Positions 30,589 to 35,036 of a stretch of DNA of 64,000 nt are shown in pieces. The notes under the pieces were generated by a model, which saw only the letters and a list, made by a program, of their open reading frames with translations, was not told where the DNA came from and searched no databases. The first letter of the stretch is position 1; every line of letters begins with the position of its first letter. A program made the translations under genes and the position numbers. The DNA is from Chloroflexota bacterium (GTDB lineage Bacteria; Chloroflexota; Anaerolineae; UBA4142): contig JACRBM010000056.1 in the NCBI GenBank assembly GCA_016219275.1, positions 1 to 64,000 of the forward strand, read 5' to 3'.

Positions 30589-30594
30589 TGAAAG

Positions 30595-30666
30595 AGCGGG
30601 AGACGAGGTTCGAACTCGCAACGTCCACCTTGGAAGGGTGGCATTCTGCCATTGAATTACTCCCGC
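30595..30666 (-). tRNA. tRNA-Gly(UCC)
   Basis: 72 nt. Acceptor GCGGGAG with CTCCCGC, discriminator T, anticodon loop CTTCCAA (UCC), T arm GCGAG-TTCGAAC-CTCGT. CCA not encoded. Confidence 0.95.
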
Positions 30667-30674
30667 ATGGTCTG

Positions 30675-30747
30675 TCGGGGCGATTGGACTTGAACCAACG
30701 GCCTCATCGTCCCAAACGATGCGCGCTACCAACTGCGCCACGCCCCG
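30675..30747 (-). tRNA. tRNA-Pro(UGG)
   Basis: 73 nt. Acceptor CGGGGCG with CGCCCCG, discriminator A, anticodon loop TTTGGGA (UGG), T loop TTCAAGT. CCA not encoded. First tRNA of the minus-strand cluster. Confidence 0.95.
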
Positions 30748-31604: not shown

Positions 31605-32696
31605 ATGGCTCAACCGATTTTTCCTTTCACTGCCATCGTCAACCAAGATAAAATGAAACGCGCACTCGTGCTCAACGCGATCAATCCGTTGATCGGCGGC
31701 GTGCTCGTGCGCGGCGAACGCGGCACCGCGAAATCCACCGCGGTGCGCGCCCTCGCCGCGTTGCTCCCACAAATCAGCGTCGTCGCGGATTGTCCGTTCA
31801 GTTGCAATCCGTACGAACACGATCGCTTGTGCGATAATTGTCGCGAACGCGTCGCGCGCGGCGAAGAGCTGCCCATCGCGAAACGACGCGTGCGTCTCGT
31901 GGACTTGCCGGTTAGCGCGACCGAAGACCGCGTCGTCGGTACGCTCGACATCGAGACCGCGATCAAAAAAGGCGAAAAGAAATTCGAGCCAGGTGTGCTC
32001 GCCAACGCGAATCGCGGAATTTTGTACGTGGACGAAGTGAACTTGCTCGACGATCACGTCGTTGACCTGTTGCTCGACAGCGCGGCGATGGGCGTGAACG
32101 TCGTCGAGCGCGAAGGTATTTCGTTTCAACATCCCGCGCAATTCGTTCTCGTCGGTACGATGAATCCGGAAGAAGGCGAACTGCGTCCGCAGTTGCTCGA
32201 CCGCTTTGGCTTGTCCGTCGAAATCAAAGGCATCAGCGACGCGGACGCGCGCGTCGAAATTATCGAGCGCCGCCTCGCGTTCGAAACCGACCCCGTTGGC
32301 TTTTGCAACGAGTGGTGCGTCGCCGAAGAAAAACTCTCGAAGGAAATTGACACGGCGCGGCACACACTTCCTTCGGTCAAACATTCGCAACCCGATTTGT
32401 ACGCGATTGCCGAACTCTCCGCCGGCTTGGAAGTGGACGGGCACCGCGCCGACCTCGTGATTCTAAAATCCGCGCGCGCACACGCCGCGTTCATTGGACG
32501 CGATCAAATCAACGAAGAAGATATTTTGCTCGCGGCGGAACTCGCGTTGCCGCATCGCATGAAACGGCGCGCGTTCCAAGAAGTCGAGTTGCGAATGGAG
32601 CAACTCGAAAAACGGCTCGATCAATCCAAGCAAGGTCTGGCGAATCAAGCGCAAAAGAGCGACCAAGCGCGTGATGTAAAAAAAAAGCCAGCGTAG
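31605..32696 (+). CDS. chlD: Magnesium/cobalt chelatase ATPase part (ChlI-like), zero-frame product of chlD
   Basis: 363 aa. Walker [17 protein letters not shown], Walker [21 protein letters not shown] and the chelatase insert [22 protein letters not shown]...[13 protein letters not shown] mark the AAA+ ATPase of Mg-chelatase subunit I/D. It drives metal insertion into tetrapyrroles using ATP. The frame ends at TAG 32694 directly after an A9 run. A -1 slip at A-AAA-AAG (32681-32687) would instead continue into the VWA frame and give about 680 aa, the normal ChlD size. So this stretch may encode both a ChlI-like short product and the N-terminus of ChlD. Confidence 0.9.
32681..32687 (+). promoter_or_regulatory. 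Slippery heptamer A-AAA-AAG for -1 frameshift
   Basis: Zero-frame codons AAA (32682) and AAG (32685) within a run of nine As (32678-32686). Slipping back one base enters the frame of the VWA domain exactly; the zero-frame stop is two codons later. A CGGCG-GACT-CGCCG hairpin lies at 32709-32722, further away than usual, so transcriptional slippage on A9 is also possible. Confidence 0.7.
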
Positions 32697-33646
32697 CCGG
32701 TGAGCAATCGGCGGACTCGCCGCCGCCCGAGCCGAGCGAACAATCGGTGCAAGGACAGGGGCACGAGCCGGGCAAACCGACGCCGCGCCCCGCCGATCAT
32801 CACACCGACATCGGCAAAGCGTTTCGCCCCAAGAAACTCCAAACTCCCCTCGACAAACTCCCGCGCAAGGTCGCGGGTAAACGCTCGCGCACGCGCACCG
32901 AGCGCAAGCGCGGGCGTTACATTTCCGCGCGACCGATGACCGGCACGAAAACAGACCTCGCGTTCGACGCGACGTTTCGCCAAGCCGCACCGTTTCAAAT
33001 TCGCCGCGTGAAAAAGAACACCGCGATCGCGATTGAATCCCAGGACTTGATGCGCAAAGTGCGCGTGCGCCGCGCCGCGAATTTGATCTTGTTCGTCGTG
33101 GACGCGTCCTGGTCTATGGCGGCGGCGGAGCGCATGATCGCGACTAAGGGTGCGATCATGTCCTTGCTGATTGACGCGTACCAAAAACGCGATCGCGTTG
33201 GCTTGGTCGTGTTTCAGAAAGAAGATGCGCGACTCGTCCTGCCGCCCACCTCGTCGGTTGATCTCGCCGAGAAAGCATTGAAAGATATTCCGGTCGGCGG
33301 CAAGACGCCGTTGAGCGCGGGCTTGTTGCTCGCGCACCAAGTCCTCGTGCGGGAGCGCGCGAAAGATCGCGAAGTGATGCCGTTGATGATTATCGTGACC
33401 GATGGCGCGGGCAATGTTTCGATGACGGATCTGCCGCCGCAAGAGGAAGCGCATCGCGTCGCGACGATGCTCAAGAAAGCAGACTTACGTTCGGTCGTCA
33501 TCAACACCGAGCACGAAGCGTTTGATCGTGGGCTTGCCGCGACGCTCGCCGACGACCTCGGCGGACCGTGTTACACGCTCAAGCAGTTGCGCGCGGAAGA
33601 GTTGTACGCGCGTGTGCGCGAGGAGATGAAGGTTATTTCCAAGTGA
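32687..33646 (+). CDS. chlD: VWA-domain part of chelatase subunit ChlD (reached by frameshift)
   Basis: 319 codons. It opens with a Pro/Glu/Gln linker ([16 protein letters not shown]) like that between the AAA and VWA domains of ChlD. This linker precedes any possible start: the first candidate, GTG at 32747, is inside it and has no ribosome site. The VWA domain has MIDAS residues in FVVDASWSM (DxSxS), [10 protein letters not shown] (Thr) and [10 protein letters not shown] (Asp). An RGRYISARP-type basic segment precedes it. Together with the upstream ATPase it makes the D subunit that bridges ATPase and catalytic subunit (ChlH or CobN), which is not in this window. Confidence 0.85.
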
Positions 33647-33655
33647 GGTTTTGTG

Positions 33656-34231
33656 ATGGCGTGGATTCAGATGATTGACGAGGCGGATGCGCGCGGCGAA
33701 CTCGCCGAGATGTACAAACGGGAAACATCAGGTTGGGGTATTGATCACATCCTCAAGGTTCACTCCCTGAATCCAGCGTCGCTCAACGCGCATCTCGTGG
33801 TTTATCGGACATTGATGTACGGCAAGTCGGGACTGTCGCGCATTCAGCGCGAAATGATCGGCACGGTCGTTTCCGCGCTCAATCATTGCGAGTACTGAAC
33901 CGTGCATCACGGCGAAGGTCTTCGCCGCCTCACGCACAAACCCAAACTCGTCGCACAACTCAAAGACGATTATCGCACTGCGCCTTTATCGCCGCGCGAC
34001 CGCGCGATGCTTGATTATTCGACAAAACTTACACGCGAACCCTGGGCAATGGTTGAGAATGATGTCCAAGCCCTGCGCGACGTGGGATTTACCGACACGG
34101 ATATCCTCGACATCGCACAGATCGTGGGTTATTTTGCGTATGTGAATCGCATCGCCGACGGGCTGGGTGTGCGTGTCGAGCCGGAAAAATGGAAGGAAAT
34201 TCGCGCGAATGAAGAACGCGATCAGCATTGA
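33656..34231 (+). CDS. AhpD-like peroxidase, selenoprotein with in-frame TGA (CxxU)
   Basis: 191 aa if TGA 33896-33898 is read as selenocysteine (residue 81). The frame continues without shift on both sides and both halves belong to one family: ...LSRIQREMIGTVVSALNHCEY-U-TVHHGEGLRRLTHKP..., matching the CxxC-HHG active site of AhpD/carboxymuconolactone-decarboxylase-like peroxidases, with the second Cys replaced. A SECIS-like hairpin follows the TGA. The enzyme would reduce peroxides through the Cys78/Sec81 pair. The ATG at 33656 has GAGG 7 bases upstream. A pseudogene with a nonsense mutation is the alternative. Confidence 0.8.
33902..33937 (+). promoter_or_regulatory. Bacterial SECIS-like hairpin
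   Basis: CGGCGAA (33910-33916), loop GGTC (33917-33920), TTCGCCG (33921-33927): seven pairs with the GGUC apical loop known from E. coli fdhF. GTGC/GCAC at 33902-33905 and 33934-33937 can extend the base. The loop begins 18 bases after the TGA, within the spacing accepted for SelB-dependent recoding. Confidence 0.7.
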
Positions 34232-35036
34232 CCTCGAAGATTGGTTTTGCGCGTACAACCTGAATATCAAGATCGAAGATTGGGACAAACAAGAATTGCG
34301 CGTTGTCGCGAATACGCGGCGCGTACTCGACGTGCTCGCCAAGCACAACACGCGCGCGACGTTCTTTGTGCTCGGCTGGGTCGCCGCGCGCGTGCCCGAC
34401 CTCCTGCGCGAAATCGAATCGGCGGAACACGAAATCGCGACGCACGGGTACTCGCACACGCTGCTGACCGAGATGACGCCGGACGCGTTCGAGCAGGACT
34501 TGGCGAACGCATTGCGCGTGACGCGCGCGTGCGTTTCGCAAAAAATCATCGGTTATCGCGCGCCGTCGTTCACGATCACGCGCAAAACGCTGTGGGCACT
34601 CGACATTCTTGCCAAGCTCGGCATCGCGTACGACTCGTCCATCTTTCCGATCAGCGGTCATCCCGATTACGGCATCGGCGACGCGCCGCTCGTGATTCAC
34701 CAACGCGGTGCGCTGACCGAGGTCCCGATGAGCGTCGCGGAGATCGCGGGCAAGCGCGTGCCGTGCAGTGGCGGCGGCTATTTTCGCGTGTTCCCGTACG
34801 CGCTGACGACGTACTTGATGCGCCAGGTCAATCGCGCTGGACGCCCGGTAATTTTCTACCTGCACCCCTGGGAGTTCGACCCCGACCAGCCGCGCCGAAA
34901 CCTGTCACGCTCGAAAGCGTTCCGCCACTATTTCAACCTCGATCAGACTGCACGGCGGCTCGACCGATTGCTGTCCGAGTTCGAGTTCGCGCCGATTAAG
35001 GAAATTTTGAATGGGACGCGGACTAACGCGGACTAA
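34209..35036 (+). CDS. Polysaccharide deacetylase (XrtA/DUF3473-type)
   Basis: 275 aa from the ATG at 34209, which overlaps the end of the selenoprotein gene by 23 bases. NodB-type motifs: SIDLEDWFC, THNTRATFFVLGWVA-like KHNTRATFFVLGWV, EIATHGYSHTLLTEM, IGYRAPSFTITRKT. The C-terminal VIFYLHPWEFDPDQPR is typical of the DUF3473 subgroup linked to exopolysaccharide/exosortase loci. It would deacetylate a cell-surface sugar polymer. No signal peptide or exosortase genes are seen. The last codons (NGTRTNAD) come from the GGACGCGGACTAACG repeat. Confidence 0.88.
   Translation: MKNAISIDLEDWFCAYNLNIKIEDWDKQELRVVANTRRVLDVLAKHNTRATFFVLGWVAARVPDLLREIESAEHEIATHGYSHTLLTEMTPDAFEQDLANALRVTRACVSQKIIGYRAPSFTITRKTLWALDILAKLGIAYDSSIFPISGHPDYGIGDAPLVIHQRGALTEVPMSVAEIAGKRVPCSGGGYFRVFPYALTTYLMRQVNRAGRPVIFYLHPWEFDPDQPRRNLSRSKAFRHYFNLDQTARRLDRLLSEFEFAPIKEILNGTRTNAD

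Follow-up and report, generated by a model that had tools for sequence, protein, structure and literature searches.

A 64,000-nucleotide stretch of a Chloroflexota contig (hereafter the window) was found to contain a gene that very probably encodes an AhpD-like selenoprotein, with an in-frame TGA predicted to be read as selenocysteine (Sec) at residue 81, the second position of the active-site pair (C78-E-Y-U81). We place the probability of this reading at roughly 95%. The sequence-only reading had proposed a CxxU selenoprotein, a claim that is now backed by a complete Sec machinery in the same genome, the interchange of TGA and cysteine codons at site 81 among relatives, and hairpins that recur downstream of the TGA. 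The features of the window that bear on this analysis are:

31605-32696, plus strand: upstream neighbour, an AAA ATPase of ChlI/BchI type corresponding to the N-terminal half of a putative cobaltochelatase-type subunit
32747-33646, plus strand: VWA protein corresponding to the C-terminal half of the cobaltochelatase/ChlD type; 9 nt separate it from the start codon of the selenoprotein gene
33656-34231, plus strand: AhpD-like (TIGR01926, peroxidase-related) selenoprotein gene, 191 aa, predicted Sec at residue 81
33887-33889, plus strand: TGC codon of C78, the putative resolving cysteine that partners U81 in CxxU
33896-33898, plus strand: in-frame TGA, predicted U81, at the place of the second Cys of the CxxC active site (here CEYU)
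33910-33927, plus strand: SECIS-like hairpin CGGCGAA-GGTC-TTCGCCG, 7 bp, apical loop GGTC at 33917-33920
34209-35036, plus strand: XrtA-system-type polysaccharide deacetylase, downstream, with a 23-nt overlap with the end of the selenoprotein gene

A GAGG ribosome-binding-like motif lies directly upstream of the ATG at 33656, and the TGA at 33896-33898 (context ...NHCEY-TGA-TVHHGEG...) is the sole internal stop of the plus-strand frame from 33656 to 34231, in agreement with the initial observation that a single TGA splits one AhpD-like frame. Translation with table 11 yields an upstream open reading frame at 33653-33898 (81 aa from GTG 33653, 80 aa from ATG 33656) and a downstream one of 109 aa at 33902-34231, the 80-aa stub and 109-aa fragment that standard annotation had been expected to produce.

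The 191-aa read-through protein scored 162.7 bits against TIGR01926 (cut-off 81.8), with residues 2-177 aligned to model positions 1-178, and 40.8 bits against Pfam CMD, for which the first fragment alone fell below the cut-off (21.4 bits) and the second gave no match. Membership in NF041238 (AhpD_rel_CFYUT, Sargasso Sea hypothetical protein 1) was rejected at 64.5 bits, below the curated cut-off of 175; this model describes an AhpD-like domain that is related and has CxYU as its motif, but a different, longer family. An AlphaFold2 model of the protein (mean pLDDT 82.1) matched structures 3c1l, 2pfx, 2prr and 6k40 in Foldseek with query TM-scores of 0.76-0.83. Structures 3c1l, 2pfx and 6k40 share the fold and family of the window protein, with 31-42% identity over the Foldseek alignments, but they contain Cys and their function is mostly unassigned.

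In a ten-sequence alignment, the columns of E66, C78, Y80, U81 and H85 were invariant, with either Sec or Cys at site 81, and the AhpD active-site helical hairpin E-x11-C-x-x-C-x3-H is present as E66, C78, U81 and H85. By spacing, the five residues match the Glu118-Cys130-His132-Cys133-His137 relay of Mycobacterium tuberculosis AhpD (residue map in PMC3141380). This enzyme and Pseudomonas aeruginosa PA0269 have the same helical hairpin, E-x11-C-x-(H/Y)-C-x3-H, but carry Cys where the window protein would have Sec; a Tyr stands in place of AhpD His132 in the window protein, as in PA0269 (PMC3141380). According to the mechanism that we propose, SelB with Sec-tRNA(Sec) would recognise the mRNA hairpin just downstream of the UGA and deliver Sec at codon 81, and the AhpD-like product of 191 residues would be a thiol peroxidase or a disulfide reductase. 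The U81 selenolate would then attack peroxide or another oxidised substrate, C78 would resolve U81 as a selenenylsulfide, with E66, Y80 and H85 acting as the proton relay.

Judged from this active site, a peroxidase activity is the function that we lean towards, by a narrow preference. The selenoprotein might instead act as a dehalogenase, disulfide reductase or decarboxylase, an alternative that concerns function only and not Sec insertion. Such a role would be consistent with the fold matches, which reach the debrominase Bmp8 (6ohi/6ohj) and CMD proteins, and with a family name, 'peroxidase-related', that has little biochemistry behind it, while the neighbouring genes offer no hint of a substrate. 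However, the AhpD relay residues (E, C, Y, C/U and H) are invariant, and PA0269, with the same Cys-x-Tyr-Cys pattern, does reduce H2O2, though weakly (PMC3141380), which makes a non-peroxidase function the somewhat less probable of the two.

Site 81 was compared across homologues collected by searches of 60 relatives and then of 400 genomes of the phylum, together with loci from a contig scan that contributed three relatives. The codon was read directly in 86 loci, and removal of five re-fetched duplicates left 81 distinct relatives, of which 61 had TGA and 20 had a Cys codon (TGT or TGC); no other codon occurred. Cys had been expected at residue 81 in homologues, and either Cys or the same TGA was found, the latter in many genera and several families rather than as a private mutation of this genome. 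In the genomes sampled, Sec is the common state of this family. In a 76-row tree built with site 81 masked, a quick reconstruction without an outgroup and with weak deep branches, the Sec and Cys states needed six changes, against a mean of 15.7 when shuffled, and the window gene paired with a Cys orthologue (L021; support 98) within a clade of 12 members (10 Sec, 2 Cys). Within the same taxonomic family, about 14 genomes were sampled and only two carried this orthologue, so the gene is dispensable there.

The distribution of the TGA also bears on whether it could be a true truncation or a wrong base, with a dead downstream half. The draft state of the assembly, in 107 contigs, and the sense codon TGT in the nearest orthologue would be compatible with a pseudogene or a sequencing error. 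However, 61 distinct relatives of many genera share the TGA at this position, a hairpin is conserved after it, and the downstream half has no other stop. Furthermore, dN/dS (NG86, against L021) was approximately 0.15 upstream of the TGA and 0.24 downstream, and amino-acid identity to two further relatives (L036 and L035) was 59-63% on both sides; these values indicate that purifying selection acts on both sides of the TGA and that what follows the codon is not dead. Truncation or error is thus very improbable, and the selenoprotein reading is retained.

Family searches of the genome itself, a 6.16-Mb draft in 107 contigs with 97.9% completeness, located SelA (585 bits, cut-off 268), SelB (336 bits, cut-off 242), SelD (366 bits, cut-off 125) and tRNA-Sec (70.6 bits to RF01852, gathering score 47; called by ARAGORN as tRNA-SeC with anticodon tca), so that all four components named for checking by the sequence-only reading were recovered. 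The selD gene itself carries one in-frame TGA where Sec usually lies in SelD (CAG-U-ASK), and two full-length genes for the formate dehydrogenase alpha subunit, with a third relative, have a TGA at the classic site (ARI-U-HS, ARI-U-HS and ARL-U-HA). The probable selenoproteins of the genome outside the window are accordingly SelD and three formate-dehydrogenase-like proteins (L009, L136, L137 and L138, on contigs C52, C9, C40 and C33). Given the complete machinery and the TGA codons at the Sec sites of SelD and FdhA, Sec decoding is present and used by several genes, and we infer that selenium is also incorporated in the AhpD-like protein. Decoding of the TGA as Trp (code 4), Gly (code 25) or Cys would likewise yield conserved read-through, but is highly unlikely in a genome that has SelA, SelB, SelD and tRNA-Sec, where other TGAs fall at the classic Sec sites of SelD and FdhA, where TGA terminates both this gene and its upstream neighbour as a normal stop, and where site 81 alternates among relatives with Cys only, never with Trp or Gly.

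In bacterial selenoprotein genes, the UGA is followed at a short distance by a stem-loop whose apical loop has a G near its start. The hairpin at 33910-33927, which agrees with the 7-bp stem and GGTC loop first described 18 bases from the TGA, follows this rule: its stem begins after a spacing of 11 nt, its loop after 18 nt, and GGTC provides the early G. Among 5000 synonymous recodings of the window sequence, its hairpin score was reached by 52 (about 1%) and its folding energy by 331 (about 7%). The hairpin alone is thus only modestly unusual given the encoded protein, suggestive but not decisive, and it is the comparative evidence that makes the selenoprotein observation convincing. No known RNA was found by Rfam at the TGA and hairpin site, where the only match was a chance one to a snoRNA (E 4.1).

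The hairpins of the relatives are clade-specific and include compensatory changes. The same columns were paired in 81% of cells across 20 TGA relatives, compared with at most 62% in slid registers and 34% for the same columns in 13 Cys relatives, and a second clade reached 92% (GACCTC..GAGGTC, GATCTC..GAGATC), although the registers were picked after inspecting the sequences and these percentages lean towards structure. Stronger evidence for the hairpin comes from the contrast with the Cys relatives and from the compensatory changes, which would preserve pairing: double changes convert CGGAGA..TCTCCG to CGCAGA..TCTGCG and CGGAG..CTCCG to TGGAG..CTCCA, and in a third clade the hairpin hardly varies and shows a single compensatory change. 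The register in the window differs from the commonest one and is common only to the Cys orthologue L021, the single close comparison for the predicted pairing of the window hairpin itself.

This nearest orthologue (L021:1501-2057, plus strand; L116:3066-3626, plus strand) has TGT (Cys) at the Sec site and lies in the same gene order, behind ChlI-type and VWA genes, in a genome that still carries SelB. Its DNA is 68% identical to the window gene, and the longest identical run in the gene is a stretch of 21 nt, CACGGCGAAGGTCTTCGCCGC, that covers the hairpin. The chance of such a run, estimated from the gene's own synonymous identity, is about 1.4%, which supports the argument without being decisive alone. 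The simplest reading is that L021 probably represents a recent replacement of Sec by Cys through a single-base change, and that its hairpin has yet to erode. The direction of this change is a matter of parsimony, given the limits of the tree, and is helped by the hairpin. The pair formed by L021 and the window gene, in which the hairpin persists, would then be a compact natural case of selenoprotein loss.

A second departure from the CxxU state was observed in a genome (G012) of the same taxonomic family as the window genome, which has SelB. In this relative (L027:1393-1935, plus strand, also L118 and L117; G012:C70:125075-125614), both active-site positions are TGA (NG-U-AH-U-TASH), and the protein scored 123 bits against TIGR01926. 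A 58% identical copy (L119:1501-2040, minus strand; G710:C206:26071-26610), from a genome of another family of the same class, keeps both TGAs of the UxxU motif, preceded by an additional in-frame TAA; this copy may be a pseudogene, a decaying gene or the product of a base error. No further close relatives came to light among 48 sampled genomes from the order to which G710 belongs or among 400 from the phylum, and a scan of viral contigs with the UxxU protein gave no match. The second TGA of another locus (L078, genome G348) raised the possibility of a UxxU motif there, which was rejected because Cys occupies the first active-site position. On these sequences, the existence of an AhpD-like UxxU form of TIGR01926 with two active-site selenocysteines is slightly favoured, our confidence being held down by the TAA in L119 and the small sample. 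UxxU motifs are reported for Prx-like, metal-binding and FmdB proteins in a 2026 review, with AhpD-like proteins not among them (PMC13188914), and if the present form is genuine it would be a variant absent from the table of that review. Together with the window gene, the UxxU relatives suggest free movement among CxxC, CxxU and UxxU states in the TIGR01926 family.

The window gene adds one sequence to an already described selenoprotein family and is otherwise an ordinary selenoprotein gene. AhpD-like CxxU selenoproteins were first reported from the Sargasso Sea set (27 sequences, COG2128; PMC1088965), were abundant in the GOS data as 'AhpD-like 1' (299 sequences; PMC2398784), and appear in Table 1 of the 2026 review as a predicted selenoprotein, 'AhpD-like protein, TIGR01926, CxxU', with MCB9421940.1 as the example (PMC13188914). 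The known TIGR01926/COG2128 members share with the window gene the family model, the Sec position and a SECIS-like hairpin just after the UGA; the window gene differs in adjoining a ChlI/ChlD-type pair and in having a nearest orthologue that uses Cys with the hairpin kept. Selenium use in these little-studied bacteria is under-counted, because automatic annotation splits or drops such genes.

The flanking genes give no clear hint of a substrate, and no neighbouring reductase was seen near the selenoprotein gene. Among the relatives examined, the ChlI/ChlD-type pair was found only beside the nearest orthologue, the more distant relatives being without it, and we therefore claim no functional link between this pair and the selenoprotein. 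In the pair itself (31605-33646), a putative cobaltochelatase-type subunit (TIGR02442) is divided between two neighbouring genes. The downstream polysaccharide deacetylase (34209-35036) scored above the TIGR03006 cut-off and is probably unrelated in function to the selenoprotein. Upstream of these genes, a tRNA-Gly(tcc) and a tRNA-Pro(tgg) lie side by side, 7 nt apart, on the minus strand at 30594-30747; two tRNAs were the Rfam matches in the window at the gathering threshold.
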